Assembly (NCBI GenBank): GCA_902767285.1
Contig: CACXHC010000185.1
Span: forward strand, 1-11,330
Source of the DNA: an uncultured Ruminococcus sp.
GTDB taxonomy: Bacteria > Bacillota > Clostridia > Oscillospirales > Acutalibacteraceae
DNA length: 11,330 nucleotides
Reading direction: 5' to 3'
Shown piece after piece: positions 72 to 11,330 of the stretch (the stretch's first letter is position 1; each line of letters starts with the position of its first letter). Under the pieces are notes generated by a model. The model made no database searches. It was not told where the DNA came from and saw nothing but the letters and a program-made list of their open reading frames with translations. Made by a program: the position numbers and the translations under genes.

Positions 72-109
72 AACAAATCCGACTGCACAAGTACGCAGTC
101 GGATTTGTT
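72..109. terminator. 15-bp perfect hairpin, probable bidirectional terminator
   Basis: AACAAATCCGACTGC (72-86) pairs perfectly with GCAGTCGGATTTGTT (95-109) around an 8-nt loop. It has the classic form of a GC-core, A/T-flanked terminator stem. On the minus strand the stem's own GGATTTGTTT end and then TCAGTTTAT form a weak U-rich tract; on the plus strand the trailing tract is poor. It lies between the operon end and a possible converging gene, so it may serve as a second terminator for the operon, a terminator for the left-hand gene, or both. Confidence 0.6.
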
Positions 110-270: not shown

Positions 271-2235
271 TTAAGAATTAACAGGTATCTTGATTCTATT
301 GTTTTCAAGTTCAAGATACGAAATAAAATCCTTTTCGCAAATAGGTTTGCTGAAATAATATCCCTGTATAAGATTTCCGCCCGATGTTTCGGTACGTTTA
401 AGCTGCTCAGAAGTCTCGACGCCCTCTTGAACAACGTTATAACCCAAGCTTCGGATAATTCGTATCAAATTATCAAGCAGGCAAGCACTTTTTTCGTTAT
501 TGTCAGATTCCCAAAGCAGAGATTTATCTATTTTAACGTTTTTGTAGCTTCCGTTCATAAACTGTATTAGATTTGAATACCCTGTTCCGAAATCGTCTAA
601 AGAGAAAGAGTATCCAATATCACGCATTTTTTTTATGGTTTGTTCAACCATTGGAGTATCTTTTATAGACGCAGATTCCGTAATTTCAAGATTTATAGCC
701 TCAACGGGAATATCGTATTTATTTCGTATTTTTTCAAAACTCTCAACAAGGTCATCGAATATAAATTGATGTAGTGACAAATTTATTTCGATATATTTGA
801 TTCCCATACTTTCGTAGTCAACACTTTTTAAAAAACGGCAGACATCTTCAAAAACCAAAAGACCTATATCTCTTATTATACCGCACTGTTCGGCTATGGG
901 AATATATATTTCGGGAGAAATTTTTCTCAATTCGTCACTGTCTATACGGAGTAATGCTTCTGCGGCAACAGTTCGCTTTTCCTCCACAGACCATATCGGC
1001 TGATACCATACACGAAGAAGTTTTGATTTTATTGCATCACGCAGAGCCTGTTCGATTTTTCTGTTGCGGCGGTTTGCAAAAAGTTCGTTGTACGGAACCA
1101 ATCTCGAACCCAAATTTGTTTTGCGATACCCCGATGCCAAAATTTCCGTTATCTCCTCAAGCGTTGATACATCTTCTGGAACACGAATAATGCTCACAGC
1201 AACTTCCAAAAGAAAATAAGCATCTCCGTTTTTCCATTCCTTGCCGAATCGTTCCAAAATCTCCTCGGCAGTATCCTCGGCGGGCTTGTCATCTGTTCCG
1301 TTATACAAAATTGCGAAATCGTTGCTCCTATAATTATATAGAATTTCTTCCGAGGAAATAGACGTTAACCATCCCGAAATCTGCATAAGCAGACTGTCGA
1401 TTTCCCTGTTGTTAAAGAGTTTTGATATTAAATCTATATCGGTTAATTTAACAAGTACAATTCTGAAACTTTGGTTAGTTTCCACAAGTTTACGGCAATT
1501 ATCGACCAAAGCAACACGATTCAACGCTCCCGTAGTTTGGTCAATATAACCGCTCCTTTCCTCAATCATCATCATCATGCCGGCAATTGTGAGCGATTCG
1601 GCGAAAACCTCGACTATGATATTCGAGTTTACAGCCTGCAATATTACGCCTATGCCCGAAAGAGTCAAAAGACCGCCTATTACATGACTGTCGTATTTTG
1701 AAATAGCTCTTTTGTATTTGAAAAAAAACACAAATCCCGAAACAAAATAAGCCGTTCCAACAATGTAGTTAAAAGTTATGAGAGAACCTCTGTGATAAAC
1801 AAAATTTTCGTCCATGTAGAACACAAATCCGGTGAAACTGTTTGTAAGAACCAGCAATTCGCAAATCACAAAGGGGAAAGAAAACAATATATAGAAATTT
1901 TTTGACCTTTTGGCACTTGAGCCATTGACATGCATAACATACAATGTGAAGCATACCGGCAATATATTGTGAAAAAAGAAATATAATGCGTGAAGAAGAT
2001 ATTGCCAAAATACAACTTTCTCTGAAGCGATATTTTGAAGATATGCCCCTATAACCGATGTTGCAGATGATATAATTGTTGATATAAGCATAAACAAAAA
2101 TATAAAATGCTGATTCATAAAATTGCTTTTTATATTTTTAGATATTCGATATTGTCTTTTTTTGGCAGTTGTAACGTATACCATACATAATGCAGACAGA
2201 ATCAGTGCCGCCGGTTCAAAATTGATGTAATTCAT
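271..2235 (-). CDS. 7TM protein with degenerate GGDEF and intact EAL domain (c-di-GMP phosphodiesterase)
   Basis: This 654-aa membrane protein probably hydrolyses cyclic-di-GMP to pGpG. Seven hydrophobic segments (about residues 5-22, 43-64, 75-101, 113-131, 150-172, 185-201, 207-223) form a sensor-like 7TM region. A GGDEF-like domain follows (about 233-370); its signature has become RSNDF (303-307), so it is probably not a cyclase and may be regulatory. The EAL domain (about 390-640) keeps the expected catalytic and metal-binding residues: E426 in EALLR, N485, E517, D547-D548 in DDFGTG, K568, E604 in EGVET and Q624 in QGYYFSKP. The start at 2235 is chosen because AAAGGAG (2247-2253) lies 11 nt upstream; an in-frame ATG at 2268 lies upstream of this site and has no site of its own. 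It is the last gene of the operon, 78 nt after the GGDEF gene. The 7TM ligand cannot be inferred. Confidence 0.93.
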   Translation of the reverse strand: MNYINFEPAALILSALCMVYVTTAKKRQYRISKNIKSNFMNQHFIFLFMLISTIISSATSVIGAYLQNIASEKVVFWQYLLHALYFFFHNILPVCFTLYVMHVNGSSAKRSKNFYILFSFPFVICELLVLTNSFTGFVFYMDENFVYHRGSLITFNYIVGTAYFVSGFVFFFKYKRAISKYDSHVIGGLLTLSGIGVILQAVNSNIIVEVFAESLTIAGMMMMIEERSGYIDQTTGALNRVALVDNCRKLVETNQSFRIVLVKLTDIDLISKLFNNREIDSLLMQISGWLTSISSEEILYNYRSNDFAILYNGTDDKPAEDTAEEILERFGKEWKNGDAYFLLEVAVSIIRVPEDVSTLEEITEILASGYRKTNLGSRLVPYNELFANRRNRKIEQALRDAIKSKLLRVWYQPIWSVEEKRTVAAEALLRIDSDELRKISPEIYIPIAEQCGIIRDIGLLVFEDVCRFLKSVDYESMGIKYIEINLSLHQFIFDDLVESFEKIRNKYDIPVEAINLEITESASIKDTPMVEQTIKKMRDIGYSFSLDDFGTGYSNLIQFMNGSYKNVKIDKSLLWESDNNEKSACLLDNLIRIIRSLGYNVVQEGVETSEQLKRTETSGGNLIQGYYFSKPICEKDFISYLELENNRIKIPVNS

Positions 2236-2246
2236 AAAATGAAAAT

Positions 2247-2253
2247 CTCCTTT
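2247..2253 (-). promoter_or_regulatory. Ribosome binding site AAAGGAG of the EAL gene (decides the start)
   Basis: Minus-strand AAAGGAG sits 11 nt before the ATG at 2235 and inside the longer reading frame that opens at 2268. This supports the shorter 654-aa product over the 665-aa one. Confidence 0.75.
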
Positions 2254-2313
2254 CGGAAAAATATACATGAAATTCGAAAGATTCTCGGCGGTTTCGAGTG
2301 TATTTCAAAAAAA

Positions 2314-5300
2314 TCAATCTATTTGTTCGTTGACATCATACAATTTATAATGTGATTTTCCGTGACGCTTTACATAATAAAGCATTTGGTCGGCTCTGTT
2401 AAGTGCGAGTTCAAAATCTTCTTTCGAGCCGCCTTTAAATGAGGCAATACCTATCGAACATGATATTTTTCTGTTATCCGGAATAGTAATTTCCATGTTA
2501 AGTTTCTTTTTAATTTTATCAACAAAGCCGTCCTGAATTTCAAAATAGATTTGTTCCGCAAACCGCACGCCGTCCTGTTCTGATTGGTCATAAAGAAGAA
2601 TAATAAATTCGTCTCCGCCGTATCTCACTGCAAGACCTTTCTCCAAAGTCATTCTTTTAAATATCTCGGCAAAAGTAACAAGAACCAAGTCTCCTACTTC
2701 GTGTCCGAAAGTATCGTTATAATACTTAAAATTATCCAAATCAAGATAAATAAGTATATTATTGATATTGCGACTTTGAGCATAAATAAATTCGGCTTGC
2801 TTGCTCAATCCGCTTCTGTTGGTGATGCCTGTAAGATGGTCGGTTATAGCCGATTGTTCGAGCTGTTGATTCATTCTCTTTATCATAACTCGGTTGTCGA
2901 TTCTTCTCATCATTTCGCAGAATTGACTAAACGCAAATTTTAAAATCATCAGCTCATCACTGCCGAAAATATAACGACCGCTTACGGTTTGACGCTTAAT
3001 TTTAATAATGCCAATAAACACGTTTTCAGTGCCGGATTGTTCCAAAATAGGTATTCCGATAATTGTCATAATATTTCGTTCTCCAAAATATTTCATAATG
3101 GGGGAGAACTGTATGAAATTTTTATCAACACGATTTGTAAGAAATGCTTGTTTATAAGTTTTGAAAAATTCGAAAACCTTGTCGGCATCTTCCGCCGAAA
3201 TATGACGGTCATGTTCTTCGGAATCCTGCATTATTTCGAGATTGCCGTCTTTGCGTCTGAAAATGATAATGTCATCAAGATTGTAGCTGTTTTTTATAAC
3301 AGCCGATGTATTTTGATAAAGATCGTTGACACCTATATTTTCACGACTTATGGCTTCCTGTAAAACCGTAAGAAATTTGATGTCTTTTTCTTTTCGTGTA
3401 AGTTTTATATGAGTGCCTGACTGTTTGGCTATCTGAAGCATACGTTCTACCGGATATACATTTTGCTGACGGACAATAGGCTCGGTAATGCGTACACCGT
3501 GTTCGGAAAAATACTGAAGTCGAGTTTTTTGACGCTGGAGTTTTTCTTTTTCGCAGAAACTAATTGCCTCAGCAATCGTCTTGTCCGCTTTATCTTTGAG
3601 TCCCTGTTTAAAATAAAGATTTGCTTGTTCGAATGCAAAAACGGATACCAAATAAAATCTTGAACTCGATGTTCTTTTAAGAATAATGTAAGCCTCATCG
3701 AACTCCTTTTGTGCGAGTTCAAGTTTATTCTCGTAATTATACAGCATACCTTTGATTATATGATATATCAAAAAATCCTCGTCCCAATTTCCCTCGTTGT
3801 TTTCCTGAAGGATTCTCAGCATATAATCGACTATTACTTCCATTTTGCTCATAAAATAGTAAGTGTTATAATACTCTCTCTGATAATAACAACCTATTGC
3901 GATAAGACCGTATAATTTTGTTGTACTGCATGCTCTTATGGATCTGTATCCAAATTCTTTTAGCATTTTAAGTATTAACTGAACTGTTTCTATTGCAGAG
4001 TTGTAATCTTCGGCAACAAAGTTATTCATAACCAAATTATATAGAGAGTTCATAACATCATCAGGTTCTTCGAGATCGGTGAGAGTGAGAACACTTCTAA
4101 ACAGATACTCGTGAGCTTTCTCGAATTTTTCCATTACAATGCTGTTATAAGACAAGCCGGCGAGCATGTGAGCTTCTCTCAGCGGATTGGGTCTTCTCAA
4201 AACAGCAAGACGTTTTTTGTACATTTCTCGTACAAACTCATGATGACTTGAACGTGAATACAATATGATATTTTTCATATAAGCATTCATAAGAAAATTA
4301 TCGTTGCCGATTTGTGTACCTGCTTCGATGCCCAAATTAAAGTAATATGGTTCTTTTGTTCCTGCCGCTATACTATCGATTGATTCTTCATCGTTTTCAA
4401 AACCGAAAACATAAAAATATGCCAATACATTTTTAAAACCATAAAATTGAGTTTTTTGAATAAACTCGTCATCTATTTTTTTAGTAAAATCGTACTCAAA
4501 AATATCTTTTCCTATACTGCAATAAGCCGACCACAACAAGATTTCAGCTTTATAAGCCAAAAGGCTGTCACCAATTTCGTCAGCTATTTTGATACATTTT
4601 TCACAACACTCCTCAACGAACTTTGTCTGAGATTTTATCATTCTTGCTCTTGCACAGACATAATAATACCTGTAACGAACATACAAATTTTGGTTTAAAT
4701 GACAATTCATGTCAAAAAGTTTATCGCAATTAACAAGAGCATAGTCAACAAGACCGAGATCCATATCAACAAGTGCAAAAATCTGCAAGAAATTTATATA
4801 CTCTTCATCGGTAAGCGAAACAGTTTTCTCGTCAACACGATTCATTATATCATTCAAATAATAATATGCGTCGTGAAGCGAAAAAGTAAAATACATATTT
4901 TTTATTTTGCCATAATACTCATGCTGTAAATTTTTATCGAACCAAAAATCGTCGTGAACGTCCATTGTTTTTTCGCTGTCGAGGCTGCCCCACTCAAGTT
5001 GAAGATTCTGATTTTCAACCAAGCTGAACAAATTGTTCCAAACGTCTTTTTTGTAATCATCTATAATGAACTCATCATTATACATCAATATTGCGTGAAT
5101 ATTTAAAGATTGCTCGACAATAGCATTAAAAAGACATATCGTGCTGTACGGTGCCAAATGAAATTTTGACAAAATAAGAACCAAATGATGTTCTTTGGAA
5201 ATATAATCAAGAATACTGATTATACTTTGTTGCATTCTATGACTTTCGTATTTTATTTCAAAATACAGCACATCTTCTCTTCTTGAGCAGTCATCATCAC

Positions 5301-5619
5301 GAATAAAAGTTGCCAGCGGTTCAATTTGCATAGAGTAGACGTTTGATTCTTTCAAAAAATCCTCAACAGACAGTTGGTCTTTATAATAAGTATTATAGCA
5401 TTCTTTTATCCATTGTAGAAACGGAGCAAAGGTGCTGTGCATAACGTGCATTTCATATTCATGATACAAAAATACTTTATCGCTTGTTTCATCAACATCG
5501 GCGAGAATCTCATTTTTTGTTATATCTAACGTATTGTAATGTTTTATAAAAATAACATTACTGTCCTTTTTTTCAACGTAAGAGGCTATAACATTTTGAA
5601 CATACGTTTTAAAATTCAT
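2314..5619 (-). CDS. Diguanylate cyclase with ATPase-relic, TPR-like, GAF-like and GGDEF domains
   Basis: This 1101-aa protein has no membrane segment and probably makes cyclic-di-GMP from two GTP in the cytoplasm. Residues 20-215 look like a decayed AAA_16/STAND ATPase: the P-loop position reads LDITKNEIL, without its glycines, and the Walker B position reads LVLILSKFH, without its acidic pair. Residues about 240-700 are helical TPR-like repeats of the kind found in MalT-type proteins. Residues about 745-905 resemble a GAF domain. The GGDEF domain (about 920-1095) has DHLTGITNR, DLDNFKYYNDTFGHEVGD and an intact RYGGDEF (999-1005). The inhibitory RxxD site expected just before it is absent (LEKG). 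The start at 5619 has only a weak AAGG site; a much stronger site upstream leads to an in-frame ATG GTA TAA (see 5644-5682). It is the third operon gene. The GGDEF assignment is secure; the ATPase and GAF calls are by eye. Confidence 0.93.
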   Translation of the reverse strand: MNFKTYVQNVIASYVEKKDSNVIFIKHYNTLDITKNEILADVDETSDKVFLYHEYEMHVMHSTFAPFLQWIKECYNTYYKDQLSVEDFLKESNVYSMQIEPLATFIRDDDCSRREDVLYFEIKYESHRMQQSIISILDYISKEHHLVLILSKFHLAPYSTICLFNAIVEQSLNIHAILMYNDEFIIDDYKKDVWNNLFSLVENQNLQLEWGSLDSEKTMDVHDDFWFDKNLQHEYYGKIKNMYFTFSLHDAYYYLNDIMNRVDEKTVSLTDEEYINFLQIFALVDMDLGLVDYALVNCDKLFDMNCHLNQNLYVRYRYYYVCARARMIKSQTKFVEECCEKCIKIADEIGDSLLAYKAEILLWSAYCSIGKDIFEYDFTKKIDDEFIQKTQFYGFKNVLAYFYVFGFENDEESIDSIAAGTKEPYYFNLGIEAGTQIGNDNFLMNAYMKNIILYSRSSHHEFVREMYKKRLAVLRRPNPLREAHMLAGLSYNSIVMEKFEKAHEYLFRSVLTLTDLEEPDDVMNSLYNLVMNNFVAEDYNSAIETVQLILKMLKEFGYRSIRACSTTKLYGLIAIGCYYQREYYNTYYFMSKMEVIVDYMLRILQENNEGNWDEDFLIYHIIKGMLYNYENKLELAQKEFDEAYIILKRTSSSRFYLVSVFAFEQANLYFKQGLKDKADKTIAEAISFCEKEKLQRQKTRLQYFSEHGVRITEPIVRQQNVYPVERMLQIAKQSGTHIKLTRKEKDIKFLTVLQEAISRENIGVNDLYQNTSAVIKNSYNLDDIIIFRRKDGNLEIMQDSEEHDRHISAEDADKVFEFFKTYKQAFLTNRVDKNFIQFSPIMKYFGERNIMTIIGIPILEQSGTENVFIGIIKIKRQTVSGRYIFGSDELMILKFAFSQFCEMMRRIDNRVMIKRMNQQLEQSAITDHLTGITNRSGLSKQAEFIYAQSRNINNILIYLDLDNFKYYNDTFGHEVGDLVLVTFAEIFKRMTLEKGLAVRYGGDEFIILLYDQSEQDGVRFAEQIYFEIQDGFVDKIKKKLNMEITIPDNRKISCSIGIASFKGGSKEDFELALNRADQMLYYVKRHGKSHYKLYDVNEQID

Positions 5620-5643
5620 ACTATACCTTGCACAATATAAAAT

Positions 5644-5682
5644 TTATACCATGCTTCTCCTTTCCGAAAAAAATTGGTATAA
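5644..5682 (-). promoter_or_regulatory. Strong RBS and in-frame two-codon mini-ORF within a hairpin, leader of the GGDEF gene
   Basis: On the minus strand, TTATACCA (5682-5675) and TGGTATAA (5651-5644) form a perfect 8-bp inverted repeat with a 23-nt loop. The loop contains the strong ribosome binding site AAAGGAG (5657-5663). Four nucleotides after it comes ATG GTA TAA (5652-5644), most of which is the second arm of the stem. This ATG is exactly 33 nt, or 11 codons, upstream of and in frame with the start used at 5619. The layout suggests either an ancestral start lost to a stop at codon 3, or a leader mini-ORF controlling translation by reinitiation. The repeat and frames are seen directly; regulation is inferred. 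Confidence 0.5.
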
Positions 5683-5709
5683 CATTATTTTGGAGAAAAC
5701 AAATAATGT
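5682..5709 (-). promoter_or_regulatory. AT-rich 9-bp hairpin just after the BMP gene stop
   Basis: ACATTATTT (5682-5690) pairs perfectly with AAATAATGT (5701-5709) across a 10-nt loop, starting 2 nt after the stop of the binding-protein gene. In the minus-strand transcript it is followed after 8 nt by a run of seven Ts (5667-5673). The stem is weak because it is all A-T except one pair, so it is at most an inefficient terminator, an attenuator or a processing/stability element between operon genes. It abuts the next hairpin at 5682. Confidence 0.4.
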
Positions 5710-5711
5710 AA

Positions 5712-6965
5712 TTACTCTTCGATTATAACTATATCATTAATAATATAATGAAATGACGGTGCCGATTGGTAGCGACACTCTTTGTAAACAGTGTTCAAAT
5801 CGCAAACATCATTTTCATTATTTGGATTCTTTCCTTGATAGTCCCCATAAAAAACGGAACATATATCTTTTTTAAATTCGTTTATACTTTCGTCTATTAT
5901 ATCTTCGCTTCCATCAGGTGCAACAGCACGATTCAAGTCAAGCATTTTGACCCAGCCTTCATTAAATCCCCCGCCTGAGTCGTTGCCGTGAATACTGCCC
6001 TCCACATTTTTTTTTATTTTTTTGTTTGTGATGACCGCCTCGACCGCTGAACAAATATACGGCGACCAGTCTATTCTCGCTCCGACAAGCGTTGAGTTTG
6101 GTGCATTGTACAACATATCTTGATTATAGCTTATATGATACACCGCATGTCCTACCTTAGTATTTTCGCAGGCGACGGCAGTACCGCTCGTATCCGTATC
6201 TTGAGATATTATTATGCAGCCTTCTTCAATCAGCAGATTTGCAGTTCTGTATTCTTCCGAATAATTTGACCATGAGTTTGTATATCTTACTTTTATTTTA
6301 GCACTTTCGCACTCACGTATTGCACCGAGTACAAAAGCGGTATAGTCCGTAATAACTTCGGAATTTGGATATGCGGCAACAAATCCCAGCCATGCTTCTT
6401 CATCAGTTATTTCACCGTTATCTATCATTTGTTTAAGCTGAAAACCGGCGACTCTGCCCGAAATATACCATCCCTCGTAAATTCTTCCCATAAATGTATG
6501 ATAATTTTTTAATAGCGGCTCTTCGTTTGCATTTGAACAAGTTGCCTGACAAAACTCCGTTTTGGGGTGAGATTGGGCAAATTTTTTCAAATCATCTCCA
6601 AATTCGTAGCTGTTTGAAAAAATGATGTCGCAGTTTTCCTCCATAAGTTCATTCAGAACTTGTTCGGCATATAACTCGGGAACATTACTTTTTACAACAA
6701 CATTCACTTTAGAACCGAATTTTAATTCAAGTATATCTACCACACGCAGAAAGTCTTCACTGTGAGAAGTGCTTTCATCTCCGTTGCACATAAAACCGAC
6801 CGTAACGGATTCTTTCTCATTTACAACAAAAACTCCCAAATAATGAAGAACACAGCACAGCGAAACAGTACAAGCAACCGTTATGAGTAAAGGAATAAGC
6901 GAATTTTTTTCAATTTTTATATCATCATATATTATATTTACAATCTTTTTAAGATTTGTTTTCAT
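5712..6965 (-). CDS. Membrane-anchored BMP/PnrA-family substrate-binding protein
   Basis: This 417-aa protein belongs to the basic membrane protein (BMP, PF02608) family. Known members bind purine nucleosides outside the cell for ABC importers. Family-like stretches include VTVGFMCNGDES (54-65), CDIIFSNSYEFGDDL (112-126), NYHTFMGRIYEGWYISGRVA (154-173), WLGFVAAYPNSEVITDY (192-208) and the later IIISQDTDTSGTAVACEN (251-268). A basic N-tail of about 22 residues and one hydrophobic segment (about 23-47) anchor it. A convincing lipobox is not evident (TVAC at 29-32 is a poor match). No ABC permease or ATPase lies nearby, so a sensory rather than import role is likely. The start at 6965 is favoured because AAAGGAG (6978-6984) lies 12 nt upstream; the ATG at 6977 directly abuts it and 6992 is upstream of it. 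It overlaps the HD-GYP gene by 17 nt, implying coupled translation. Ligand unknown; a nucleoside is a family-based guess. Confidence 0.88.
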   Translation of the reverse strand: MKTNLKKIVNIIYDDIKIEKNSLIPLLITVACTVSLCCVLHYLGVFVVNEKESVTVGFMCNGDESTSHSEDFLRVVDILELKFGSKVNVVVKSNVPELYAEQVLNELMEENCDIIFSNSYEFGDDLKKFAQSHPKTEFCQATCSNANEEPLLKNYHTFMGRIYEGWYISGRVAGFQLKQMIDNGEITDEEAWLGFVAAYPNSEVITDYTAFVLGAIRECESAKIKVRYTNSWSNYSEEYRTANLLIEEGCIIISQDTDTSGTAVACENTKVGHAVYHISYNQDMLYNAPNSTLVGARIDWSPYICSAVEAVITNKKIKKNVEGSIHGNDSGGGFNEGWVKMLDLNRAVAPDGSEDIIDESINEFKKDICSVFYGDYQGKNPNNENDVCDLNTVYKECRYQSAPSFHYIINDIVIIEE

Positions 6966-9900
6966 TATTGCCGTCATCTCCTTTCTCTTCATCTTTGCTG
7001 TAAAGTTTTTCTATATTTATTTCACCGCTTTCGATAAGACCAAGGAAAATATCAAGCAATTCGGGATCAAACTGTGTCCCTCTGCCGTTGCGAAGTTCAT
7101 TCATAACGTAATCGAAATCCTGACGCTTTCTGTAAATACGATTAGCAGTCATAGCATCGAAGGCATCGGCGATAGCAATAATACGTCCGTACAGCGGAAT
7201 ATCTTTTCCCGAAAGATGGTCGGGATAACCTTTGCCGTCATACCTTTCGTGATGATACCTCGCACCGTCATCGGCATGCTTAACGAGCGTGAACTCTTTC
7301 AAGATTTCGGCACCACGCATTACATGAGTTTTCATAATTTTGTATTCTTCATAAGTCAGTCGAGAAGGTTTATTCAAAATGGCATCGGGAATGCCTATTT
7401 TACCTATATCATGAAGCAAAGCGGATTTTCTGATATTTTCGAGTTCTTCTTCATCGAATCCGCATTTCTCGGCTATTTTGACAGTGTACTCCGAAACACG
7501 CTGAGAATGTTGACTTGTGCGAACGTCTTTTGCGTCCACAGTTTTAGCAATAGCAAGAATAGTTTCGTTGCCAAGCTTAACTTGCTGAAGTGCAAGTGAC
7601 AATTTGGCTTGTTGAATTTCGAGAGTTCTCTGCATTTGCATTCTTGTTATAAACCAAGTAAGCCAGCCTATGAATAACCCTCCGAAAGCAATCATGTATA
7701 CAATAAACCATTTATTGTCGTAAATAGCCCTTTCTTTTTCGAAACTGTATGAACATTCTTCCAGACTTTTTCCAGTTTCGGGGTCGAGTATTGCCAAACG
7801 GAATTCGTATTCTCCGGCAGGGAGATTTGTATACACTATATGCGAAAGCTCGGTTTGCGAAACGCTTTTCCACGAGTCGTCAAGCCCTTCGAGCTTATAA
7901 GAAATAGTTGGATTTTCAAGAGTATAGTTGACTATTTCGGGAACCAGCTCTATACTTTTAACATCTTTTTCGATTATAATACCGGTTCTGTTTTTACTCA
8001 AAAAAGATTTTCCATCCAAAAGTATTTCCGGAATCATTAATCTGTAAAAACGGCGTTTTGTTTTGTAAGCATCTAAATTAACGCTGAAAACACCTCTGTC
8101 AGTTGAAAAATAGGCATTTTTATTTTCGTCTATGGCATTCCAAGCGTTAGATGTCAAAGAACCAATCAAACCAACTTTCGAGTTAAGCACAATATAGTCG
8201 AGATTTCTTCCCGAAATAAGATTTTCTCTTTGACACACATAAATTCCGGAACTTCCCGTAACAAATATATCGCCGTCATCATCAAGAATCAAATCAAAGT
8301 TATTCGAATAAGGAAAATTTTTAAACTCATTTATTTTATCATTTTTAAGGTAGCACAATCCGTTGCCCGTGGAAACAAAAACATCATTTTTATTTAAATC
8401 TCCGACCATTCGAAGAATAACATCGGAGGTAAGTCCGTCATCTCTTGTATAATTTTTTACGACTTTTTTGTCTTTTATTACGGCAATACCGTTGCCATCA
8501 GTACCGGCAAGCACAGTTCCATCGGGATATTCGTATATACAAAGAACTTCTGCGGCACCCATATCCTCACCAAAAATAAGACGTCCGGTAATTTGTTCGT
8601 CTTTAATGAAATACAGACCCAAATCTCCTCCCACAATAACAGAACCGTCACTCAACTCCATACAAACACGAACCCGAGAGCCTATGCCGTATTGTTCGCC
8701 GTCAAATCTGACTATATCTCCGTTGCTTTTTACTTTTATTAAGCCTTTGCTGTAACTGCATATCCACAAATTATTAGAAGAATCTTTTATAATACAGCGA
8801 ACTCTCGTATCTGAAAGTAATTTAGTAAGCTCATTTTCCACGATTTTTTTATTTGCTGTATCTATTATTGAAAGCCCTCCGTCCATTCCGATATATATAT
8901 AATTATCCTTAAGAGCAGTAGTATTTACAACTTGCTGTTCGAGTCCGTACTCGGCGAAAATATCGGTAAAAGGGGAGGCGGAAAGCTGCATAAGTCCCAT
9001 TCTTGACGATGCTATCCACAGATTGCCTTGATAATCCACCACCATTTTTTCGAGTGAATAATTAAAACCTTCGGTTTCAAGATGTTCAAAATTCTTTCTT
9101 TGATGTATTGTACCAACGCCGTTATCCGAAAGCACCCAAACAACATCATTATCAGATATATAAATATTATTGAGTCCGGAAAGCGATTCACAATTTATAT
9201 TTTCAGAACACTCGGCACTTTTTTCGCCTACATTATATATTAATACATGACCGTCGGCAGTACCTGCAAAAAGTTCTCCGCTTTTGCCGAAAGTACAGCA
9301 AGTAAATTTGACATCGGTATCGTCAGAGATTATTTCATAGACAACATCGCCTTCTCTGAGAATATATATCTTCCCCGACCCGGTAGTAACGGCAACGTTG
9401 CCGTTATCATCGGCAGATGATGATTTTGCAAACAAAACGTCGTCCAAAGTTTTTATTATATGGATACCTGTTTCGAGCCGAGCCACAGCCATTTTGTCGG
9501 AAGTTCCGATATAATAAAGCCCATCTGAGCTTTGAGTAATACTGCGAACCGAATTATTCGGCAAACCTGTATAGTCATTTGAAGAAGCCATAATTTTTTC
9601 ATGGATTGAAAGAACAACACCGTTGTCATTTGTACCAATCCACAATCTGCTTTCGGTATCAACAAAAAGACAGTTTACGTTTTTTACGGAATCAAATTCG
9701 TCCATGTGTCGAAAAGTATTTCCGTTATATCTGTACAAACCCGAGTAACTGCCCGCCCACAGAATACCGTCTTTAGTTTGAACAACATCGTTTGCATGAC
9801 CGCATGAAAGACCGTTGTCACCGTTATAAATTTTTCGTATATATGACGAACTTTCGGAATCCGAAATATTGTCTGCACTTGCATGAATATTTATTTCACA

Positions 9901-10563
9901 TAAGAAAGACAGAGCGGCGGGAATCAAAAACAGTGCAGTTATACTTTTTATGGCAGATAAAGTTTTATTTCTGTCATTTGCCGAAATTTTCTTTTTATCT
10001 GCGATTTTTGATTTTTTCGCATGAATGGACTGTATTACATAAAATACACCAACAATTGAAACGAGCTTATCTGTAAATTCGAGATACAATTGACCTATAA
10101 ATGCCGCAAGATTTTTAGGCATACCGTTGACCATAAAAAAATCTCTAACACCGTCACCGAGAACGTTACCTGTATCTGTATCGAAATATATTGCATTTAG
10201 TATTGTAGAAAAAATCACCGAAACAATTGTAACAATTCCGGTAATGGACATAGCATGAAACAGCGTATCAAAAAATTTTCGGCGAGCTGCTATTCCCACG
10301 CAAAGACCGACTATAATTCCCGACAAACAATAAATAACCGGTTTGTTATTCCAAAAAGACATAATAATGCTTGATGTAAAACCCACAACAGCACCGCATA
10401 TAGGTCCAAAAATATATGCGGCGAAAATCGTACCGAACGAATCCATCATAGCAGGAACAGAATATAAATCTGTAAAAATATCTCCGCCCACGTTTAAGGC
10501 AATACATATCAAAGTTATTACAGAAACTTTAACGGCTAATCCAAAACGGCTTTTTCCGGTCAT
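6949..10563 (-). CDS. Propeller/Y_Y_Y sensor with C-terminal HD-GYP phosphodiesterase domain
   Basis: This 1204-aa protein is built as a one-component transmembrane sensor. Residues 8-225 hold about six hydrophobic segments; the part with DSFGTIFAAYIFGPICGAVV (41-60) resembles an ECF-transporter S component. Residues about 240-830 contain roughly 14 Reg_prop repeats (ILWAGSYSGLYRYNG, RLWIGTNDNGV, NLWICSYSKGLIKV and others), enough for two seven-blade propellers outside the cell. A Y_Y_Y domain (about 845-940) includes YKLEGLDDSWK and YTNLPAGEYEFRL. A TM helix (952-973) and a short helical linker lead to HD-GYP (about 1000-1180). Its metal and catalytic residues are present: H1019, H1051-D1052 with K1055 (HDIGK), H1080, H1104-H1105, DGKGYP (1109-1114) and D1133. 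HD-GYP enzymes hydrolyse c-di-GMP or related dinucleotides. AAGAGGA (10571-10577), with GAGG 8 nt upstream, supports the start at 10563 over an in-frame ATG at 10626. First operon gene. The propeller ligand is unknown. Confidence 0.93.
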   Translation of the reverse strand: MTGKSRFGLAVKVSVITLICIALNVGGDIFTDLYSVPAMMDSFGTIFAAYIFGPICGAVVGFTSSIIMSFWNNKPVIYCLSGIIVGLCVGIAARRKFFDTLFHAMSITGIVTIVSVIFSTILNAIYFDTDTGNVLGDGVRDFFMVNGMPKNLAAFIGQLYLEFTDKLVSIVGVFYVIQSIHAKKSKIADKKKISANDRNKTLSAIKSITALFLIPAALSFLCEINIHASADNISDSESSSYIRKIYNGDNGLSCGHANDVVQTKDGILWAGSYSGLYRYNGNTFRHMDEFDSVKNVNCLFVDTESRLWIGTNDNGVVLSIHEKIMASSNDYTGLPNNSVRSITQSSDGLYYIGTSDKMAVARLETGIHIIKTLDDVLFAKSSSADDNGNVAVTTGSGKIYILREGDVVYEIISDDTDVKFTCCTFGKSGELFAGTADGHVLIYNVGEKSAECSENINCESLSGLNNIYISDNDVVWVLSDNGVGTIHQRKNFEHLETEGFNYSLEKMVVDYQGNLWIASSRMGLMQLSASPFTDIFAEYGLEQQVVNTTALKDNYIYIGMDGGLSIIDTANKKIVENELTKLLSDTRVRCIIKDSSNNLWICSYSKGLIKVKSNGDIVRFDGEQYGIGSRVRVCMELSDGSVIVGGDLGLYFIKDEQITGRLIFGEDMGAAEVLCIYEYPDGTVLAGTDGNGIAVIKDKKVVKNYTRDDGLTSDVILRMVGDLNKNDVFVSTGNGLCYLKNDKINEFKNFPYSNNFDLILDDDGDIFVTGSSGIYVCQRENLISGRNLDYIVLNSKVGLIGSLTSNAWNAIDENKNAYFSTDRGVFSVNLDAYKTKRRFYRLMIPEILLDGKSFLSKNRTGIIIEKDVKSIELVPEIVNYTLENPTISYKLEGLDDSWKSVSQTELSHIVYTNLPAGEYEFRLAILDPETGKSLEECSYSFEKERAIYDNKWFIVYMIAFGGLFIGWLTWFITRMQMQRTLEIQQAKLSLALQQVKLGNETILAIAKTVDAKDVRTSQHSQRVSEYTVKIAEKCGFDEEELENIRKSALLHDIGKIGIPDAILNKPSRLTYEEYKIMKTHVMRGAEILKEFTLVKHADDGARYHHERYDGKGYPDHLSGKDIPLYGRIIAIADAFDAMTANRIYRKRQDFDYVMNELRNGRGTQFDPELLDIFLGLIESGEINIEKLYSKDEEKGDDGNNENKS
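6978..6984 (-). promoter_or_regulatory. Ribosome binding site AAAGGAG of the BMP gene, inside the upstream gene
   Basis: Minus-strand AAAGGAG lies within the last codons of the HD-GYP gene. The ATG at 6977 touches it with no spacer, whereas the ATG at 6965 is 12 nt away, so 6965 is the likelier start. Confidence 0.65.
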
Positions 10564-10643
10564 AAAATATTCCTCTTTTACAAAATAATTGTTCACAGTA
10601 CGGTGTAACGGCACATCAAATGCCATACATATATATACAGTAT

Positions 10644-10672
10644 ATTATAGCATATTTTGGTTAAATTCACAA
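10644..10672 (-). promoter_or_regulatory. SigA-type promoter of the four-gene c-di-GMP operon
   Basis: On the minus strand TTGTGA (10672-10667) is followed after exactly 17 nt by TATAAT (10649-10644), a perfect -10. Transcription would begin near 10637, giving a leader of about 74 nt before the ATG at 10563. No c-di-GMP riboswitch or other recognised structured RNA is visible in that leader; there is only a short GGCA/TGCC inverted repeat (about 10609-10623). No comparably clear promoter was seen between the four genes. Confidence 0.65.
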
Positions 10673-10841: not shown

Positions 10842-10915
10842 GACAACATAAATTTTTTATGTTTAGGAGATTTGATTATGGCAAGTATAGGAGAGCAAAT
10901 CAAAAAATATCGAAT

Positions 10916-10922
10916 AAAAAAG
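10916..10922 (+). other. A AAA AAG slippery heptamer at the first frame break
   Basis: In the frame of the ATG at 10878 the codons are ATA AAA AAG GAT, so A AAA AAG is positioned exactly as in the E. coli dnaX -1 frameshift site. A one-base backward slip gives KKGYTQEKL, the expected HTH sequence. An AGGAG lies about 22 nt upstream, farther than the usual stimulator distance, and no strong downstream stem was noticed, so programmed frameshifting is possible but not favoured. Confidence 0.4.
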
Positions 10923-11089
10923 GATACACTCAGGAAAAACTTGGAAGCATAATCGGAGTTACTACACAGGCAGTTTCAAAGTGGGAGAGAGGGAGTGTTC
11001 CGGATGCAGAAATGATCCCTTTTATAGCAGATGCCCTTGATGTAGATATTAACTCTCTTTACGGAAGAGAAGAACAGGATATTCAGGTA

Positions 11090-11096
11090 TTTTTTT
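11090..11096 (+). other. Seven-T run at the second frame break
   Basis: The HTH frame reads GTA TTT TTT TAC and soon meets a stop after ARGFSTGI (TGA at 11147-11149). Removing one T gives GTA TTT TTT ACC and joins the coding frame that continues to the window end. This is opposite in sign to the first break, so the two together restore frame. It marks an indel, assembly error or polymerase slippage point. Confidence 0.6.
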
Positions 11097-11330
11097 ACCA
11101 AAAGACTGAGCCGGCTTCCTCAGCAAGAGGCTTTTCAACTGGCATTTGATACCTGCTGGTCGATATTTTTCGGACTTGTCGGCGATTCCGATTTTACTGA
11201 TGATTTTACCGATACATTCATAGGCCGTTCCGACATACACAAAGAAAAATCTCAAGATTACTATTTAACTATAAATGAGCAAATTAAAAAAATGCACAAA
11301 AATAAAGACAACGACTCGAAAATGAGTTAC

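Follow-up and report, generated by a model that had tools for sequence, protein, structure and literature searches.

Organization of the locus

We examined a stretch of 11,330 nucleotides (hereafter the window) from an uncultured Ruminococcus sp. (assembly GCA_902767285.1, contig CACXHC010000185.1). It carries on the minus strand four long open reading frames (ORFs), which encode, in that order, an HD-GYP protein, a BMP-family binding protein, a GGDEF protein and an EAL protein. A first-pass annotation, made from the sequence alone, had described these genes as an operon for cyclic di-GMP (c-di-GMP) turnover, with the BMP protein as a sensory input. The order, strand, overlap, short gaps and intact catalytic motifs that it reported were borne out by the ORFs, by Pfam matches and by the motifs themselves. 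As described below, the conserved unit that we found is the pair formed by genes 1 and 2, not the foursome. The genes are the following (aa, amino acids; bp, base pairs):

6949..10563, minus strand: gene 1, HD-GYP protein, 1204 aa from the ATG at 10563 (alternative start 10626)
5712..6965, minus strand: gene 2, solo BMP-family (PF02608) binding protein with an N-terminal hydrophobic anchor (alternative start 6992)
6949..6965, minus strand: overlap of genes 1 and 2, 17 bp (44 bp with the first ATG, 6992)
2314..5619, minus strand: gene 3, long N-terminal region with weak TPR matches and an intact GGDEF domain
271..2268, minus strand: gene 4, HisKA_7TM-like membrane region (under cut-off), degenerate GGDEF (SNDF) and intact EAL

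We preferred the ATG at 10563 to the start at 10626 because AGAGGA sits upstream of it. Likewise, ATG 6965 was taken as the start of gene 2, hence the 17-bp overlap, because a ribosome-binding-like AAAGGAG lies upstream of it, inside gene 1. The intergenic gaps measure 92 bp between genes 2 and 3 and 45 bp between genes 3 and 4.

Genes 1 and 2 are conserved as a pair

With the BMP protein as query we searched 118 related genomes, including that of the window; 46 gave a match, and the neighbourhoods of all 47 BMP places outside the window were examined (a second small piece in G001 falls within locus L037). Five genus-mates (L032-L036) carry a BMP gene whose overlapping neighbour has the ECF-S-like, propeller and HD-GYP parts of gene 1. 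Gene 1 is present in 6 of the 22 genus genomes, and these are the same six that hold a full BMP match. A sixth genus locus, L037:6747-7382, contains a BMP remnant whose start and end pieces lie in different frames and whose middle is lost; that genome, which is 77% complete, yielded no gene 1.

A scan of titled genome records with the single BMP sequence gave no relatives; an alignment of the N-terminal part of gene 1 did find them, and we kept the best 80 of 116 loci. In 75 of these 80, gene 1 is followed directly by BMP on its own strand; the contig ends in four and BMP is missing in one (L182), where two ORFs (687 and 652 aa) that match none of the query domains come after gene 1. Among the kept loci with room downstream, BMP thus follows gene 1 in 75 of 76. 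The two genes are separated by a median of -4 bp, counted from the first possible start codon; they overlap in 55 of the 75 loci, by exactly 4 bp in 30. Five of the 80 loci (L112, L113, L114, L125 and L127) are the same as the genus-mates L032-L036, and L161 and L186 are two loci of one genome. According to the titles, the survey covers rumen and gut Lachnospiraceae, Ruminococcus and other Clostridia, Anaerolineaceae/Flexilinea, Treponema and others, so that genomes with this gene pair (hereafter the module) are labelled Bacillota, Chloroflexota and Spirochaetota, although some labels may be wrong because many of the records are metagenome bins.

Relatives of gene 1 were also sought in 398 genomes from a larger group, 25 of which had a match. 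Apart from the window there were 27 such places; 19 were opened, and the other eight are short stand-alone ECF-S-like ORFs. Twelve of the 19 encode a propeller protein without the ECF-S-like part, and BMP is next in none of the ten with room downstream (L235 and L236, with too little room, were excluded from this count). In both L239 and L240, which are cut off upstream and have a module-type C-terminal part, BMP comes next; L245 has an HD-GYP match alone. Because the partial forms lack BMP, we consider that in the opened loci BMP accompanies the full gene 1 architecture. In four family genomes (L241-L244) an ECF-S-like domain is fused to HD-GYP with no propeller, and BMP is found in 0 of 4.

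Gene 1 encodes a predicted c-di-GMP phosphodiesterase

The gene 1 protein consists of an ECF-S-like membrane domain, a linker helix, propellers, a Y_Y_Y domain, a long helix and an HD-GYP domain; the long helix is probably a transmembrane segment plus a coiled coil. Pfam gave HD_5 (3e-37), Reg_prop and Y_Y_Y, and the scan listed no kinase or regulator output domain for this protein. The N-terminus matched NCBIfam ECF_S_CD3073 with E = 1.3e-17 and 64 bits, far under the curated cut-off of 180, and Pfam 5TM-5TMR_LYT with 17.4 bits, below the cut-off of 24.6. All parts of the HD-GYP signature (HDIGK, HHE and GYP) are present in the window. Moreover, HDxGK and HHE..DG.GY are kept in all 70 complete relatives and the final P of GYP in 54 of them. 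Gene 1 is predicted on this basis to be a c-di-GMP phosphodiesterase.

A structure model of the protein was obtained with a mean predicted local distance difference test score of 83.0 and a predicted template modelling score of 0.56, the latter making the placement of the domains uncertain. From N to C it shows seven or eight helices, about 600 residues of strands, a strand domain at Y_Y_Y, a helix some 60 residues long and, last, the HD-GYP domain. The outer part is structurally nearest to the Bacteroides hybrid two-component sensors BT3049 and BT4663, which share its fold. Those sensors have a kinase and a DNA-binding output, whereas gene 1 has an HD-GYP output and, in addition, the ECF-S-like N-terminal part. 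The helices and the Bacteroides relatives suggest a topology with the sensor outside and HD-GYP inside the cell.

The module BMP gene stands apart from importer genes

Bmp (PF02608) is the sole Pfam match of gene 2 (1.5e-23, 83.7 bits against a curated cut-off of 24.1); an NCBIfam scan gave no match. Outside the genus, 38 of 41 places show an ORF with ATP-binding cassette (ABC) ATPase motifs no more than 2.5 kb downstream of BMP, and the remaining three have at most 1728 bases of contig left. At L062:1289-2683, on a short contig, we observed a BMP-type ORF with a different N-terminus and no ATPase ORF in the remaining 1.3 kb. No ABC ATPase was found beside BMP in any of the six genus loci, nor any ATPase or permease gene within the four-gene run of the window. 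In the 4 kb downstream of BMP, an ABC ATPase motif appears at two of the 73 complete module loci, in ORFs of 266 and 243 aa.

The genome of the window has one Bmp-family match and one BPD_transp_2 permease, which is flanked by an ATPase-like ORF on one side and a further binding-protein-like ORF on the other (both named by ORF reading). The assembly (97.07% complete, 323 contigs) yielded no BMP-fed importer with two permeases of the kind that many distant relatives have beside them. A lipobox occurs in 2 of 73 module BMPs versus at least 24 of 30 distant ones, the latter being a lower bound because the six negatives include mis-called starts; inspection by eye of the N-terminus of the window BMP revealed none. 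In the BMP tree the module proteins form one clade. This tree includes 28 of the 41 distant places (L044, L058 and L077 were excluded deliberately, L078 fell below the score limit and nine were hidden by antisense ORFs); 30 distant BMPs entered the lipobox count and 31 the pocket table.

We therefore rejected an importer role for the module BMP, since the lipobox is nearly absent, the sole BPD_transp_2 permease of the genome is placed elsewhere and ATPase neighbours go with the distant relatives. The first-pass interpretation is partly supported as a whole: what stands is the tie to HD-GYP within one clade and the lack of importer genes found, and what finds no support is a conserved foursome. 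The first-pass annotation had also named a finding that would speak against it, namely BMP relatives beside importers; this is what we see for the distant relatives and not for the module clade.

The fold points to a purine base as the probable ligand

Structurally, the BMP fold is nearest to the guanine binder AtzT (6pi5). AtzT and 3s99 are BMP-type proteins that bind purine bases; the module BMPs, in contrast, are helix-anchored, solo and tied to HD-GYP. PnrA and other nucleoside-binding BMPs are less similar to the module BMP than AtzT is. Because of this nearest fold, a purine base (adenine/guanine type) is the more likely ligand of the module, rather than a nucleoside. We compared the pocket residues at AtzT positions 45, 97, 165, 194, 218 and 220 in alignment A2, made of the window and 60 of the 73 complete module BMPs (A3, for gene 1, holds the window and 50 of 70 relatives). 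The commonest pattern, YSEWHD, was found in 31 of the 61 aligned module rows; AtzT has N at 218 and 220, whereas the module BMPs mostly have H at 218 and D at 220.

Another structure match of the module BMP is Med (2hqb), a BMP-like regulator of comK in Bacillus. PnrA-type BMPs are importer lipoproteins with a nucleoside pocket, and Med is a PnrA-like protein with a regulatory function (PMC12892991). A regulatory role is also what we propose for the module BMP.

Genes 3 and 4 look like a local addition

Gene 3 matches GGDEF (1.3e-32) with an intact motif. Gene 4 matches EAL (1.7e-53), with EALLR and DDFGTG present, and has a weak second GGDEF match whose motif reads SNDF and is degenerate. Full-length gene 3 orthologues with 52-75% identity were detected in G003, G006, G007 (two), G009, G017 and G019, and gene 4 orthologues with 59-64% identity in G001, G003, G007, G009 (partial), G017 and G019. 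The seven gene 3 places and five of the six gene 4 places were opened (the partial G009:C287 was omitted); none adjoins a gene 1-gene 2 pair and none forms a gene 3-gene 4 operon. In G003 the two orthologues are divergent neighbours, and in G009 the gene 3 orthologue faces a GGDEF/EAL gene. In G017 and G019 (L223, L226) a different HD-GYP gene follows the gene 4 orthologue on the same strand after about 1 kb, and in G019 another GGDEF/EAL gene also precedes this orthologue.

No GGDEF or EAL gene follows BMP in L032-L036, although the sequence stops 585 bases past BMP in L035 and about 1.2 kb past it in L032, which leaves room for a close neighbour only. A GGDEF/EAL match within 4 kb downstream was seen in 4 of the 73 complete module loci, 49 of which have at least 3 kb of room. 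The proposal of a conserved four-gene operon was therefore rejected: the foursome occurs at no other locus examined, its order is unique to the window among the loci searched, an outcome that the first-pass annotation had named as refuting, and sister genomes hold the orthologues of genes 3 and 4 at other places. These two genes look like a local addition beside the conserved pair.

The GGDEF matches across the 22 genus genomes split sharply, the six module genomes having 2 to 15 and 13 of the 16 others just one, with the rest also within 2 to 15. Because of this split, the co-occurrence of the four genes within the genus may reflect a c-di-GMP-rich lineage. The genome of the window itself has five GGDEF, three HD_5 and two EAL matches.

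Two further features bear on the transcription of the run:

10644..10672, minus strand: promoter-like site before gene 1, TTGTGA-17-TATAAT, with TG before the second hexamer (a 10/12 consensus match only)
72..109, no strand assigned: 15-bp hairpin beyond gene 4, terminator-like on the plus strand only

The hairpin was scored for the plus strand only because a full T run is absent on the minus side, and the terminator scan listed no minus-strand terminator-like site in the 92-bp and 45-bp gaps. Promoter-like sites number 66 in the window versus 42 in shuffles. A single promoter for all four genes is plausible from these signals. Upstream of gene 1 and divergent from it lies a gene for an HTH_3 regulator of 96 aa (10859-11149, plus strand), with promoter-like sites on both strands between the two; this regulator could control the operon.

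A putative two-protein receptor

Taken together, we propose with a probability of about two in three that genes 1 and 2 encode a conserved two-protein receptor in which the BMP protein gates the HD-GYP phosphodiesterase. In this model the BMP protein would be outside the cell membrane, held by its uncleaved N-terminal helix, and would bind a small molecule, a purine base being the likeliest. Depending on the ligand, it would dock on the outer propeller/Y_Y_Y part of gene 1 and possibly on the ECF-S-like membrane part too. The last long helix would then relay the change to HD-GYP in the cytoplasm, altering c-di-GMP breakdown; the contact itself and the direction of the response are what we infer. 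The gene overlap may keep both partners in step. In the window, a diguanylate cyclase and an EAL phosphodiesterase, found at other places in sister species, are encoded downstream and possibly co-transcribed.

Several observations weigh against this model. The P of GYP is replaced in 16 of 70 HD-GYP domains (L128, L129, L135 and 13 more loci), gene 1 is broken into two ORFs in L123 and L183 (an assembly frame change or a real break), and its start is missing, cut off, in L142, L188 and L191. The window pocket reads HSEWDD, two of six positions away from YSEWHD, and two Chloroflexi-labelled module BMPs (L145, L161) read NTELNG, so that the ligand of the module may differ or binding may be lost; the NTELNG pocket suggests that these Chloroflexi-labelled BMPs recognise another ligand. 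The contrast between relatives with and without BMP is confounded with descent, because the BMP-less ones belong to other subfamilies, and a distance correlation is weakened as evidence because shared inheritance yields correlation as well. Finally, loci without BMP are possibly under-sampled, because the search alignment held solely BMP-linked members and 36 of the 116 hits were dropped.

Among the alternatives, we consider it unlikely that BMP passes its ligand to the ECF-S-like domain of gene 1 and that, with a shared ECF energising module, the pair works as a transporter-receptor in which HD-GYP reports uptake. This would fit the presence of BMP, in the opened loci, only beside gene 1 forms that either carry the ECF-S-like domain or have a sequence that stops short of it, the N-terminal match to ECF_S_CD3073 at 1.3e-17, and the two CbiQ matches in the genome (one at E 1.1e-50), CbiQ being of the EcfT family. 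However, that N-terminal match stays far under its cut-off, the four propeller-less ECF-S-like/HD-GYP proteins are without BMP, and known ECF S components bind their ligand without a binding protein. Somewhat less likely still is an evolved circuit of the whole operon, in which one signal would act on one cyclase and two phosphodiesterases. The shared strand, the short gaps with no same-strand terminator-like site listed in them, the occurrence of gene 3 and 4 orthologues mostly in the same genus genomes and the arrangement in G017 and G019 would agree with it, but the foursome is found in no other locus examined, gene 3 orthologues lie away from the pair in all seven opened places and genes 3 and 4 are divergent in G003.

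It is very improbable that BMP serves a purine importer with permeases encoded elsewhere. In fold and pocket it matches its importer-linked relatives, yet the sole BPD_transp_2 permease is grouped with another binding protein and an ATPase, 71 of 73 module BMPs have no lipobox and the gene is tightly linked to gene 1. We give the least credence of all to a hitch-hiking neighbourhood with no functional link, for which we found no support: chance was rejected because all but one of the 76 kept loci with enough contig left show the pairing, across genomes labelled with three phyla, and where gene 1 was not found (L037) BMP is a remnant.

Relation to known systems and significance

The nearest parallel to the proposed two-protein receptor is NspS-MbaA of Vibrio cholerae, also found in Sinorhizobium, where, according to PMC8967002, a membrane c-di-GMP enzyme is under the control of a periplasmic binding protein that associates with it. 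In both cases a binding-protein gene without transporter genes adjoins that of a c-di-GMP enzyme. NspS-MbaA combines a polyamine binder with a GGDEF-EAL enzyme, whereas the module combines a PF02608 binder with an HD-GYP enzyme and, unlike NspS-MbaA, has propeller and ECF-S-like parts, a membrane-anchored binder and overlapping genes. Because both proteins come from other families, the module falls outside the NspS-MbaA family, though it would work in a similar way. The association of BMP with an ECF-S-like/propeller/HD-GYP protein was not found in the literature searched, most subscription papers being outside its reach; the parts of the module are of known kinds and their combination is new within that literature.

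We also put forward, tentatively and as clearly less probable than the receptor itself, a broader view. The module could be an undescribed, widespread receptor class in which the former binder of a purine importer lost its transporter, gained a membrane anchor and was coupled to an ECF-S-like/propeller/HD-GYP protein. Purine bases outside the cell, captured by BMP and perhaps passed on to the ECF-S-like domain, would set c-di-GMP breakdown, and a Chloroflexi branch with an altered pocket would sense another ligand.

The ligands of c-di-GMP enzymes are unidentified in most studied species, according to PMC8967002, and the words purine, guanine and nucleobase are absent from the main text of a c-di-GMP review (PMC8846402). 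Here, the gene pair points to a likely sensor subunit and its solved relative gives a short list of ligands. If the proposal is true, purine bases would join the known c-di-GMP inputs, and bacteria of the rumen and gut, for which attachment to fibre and release from it may matter, would have turned an importer part into a receptor subunit.

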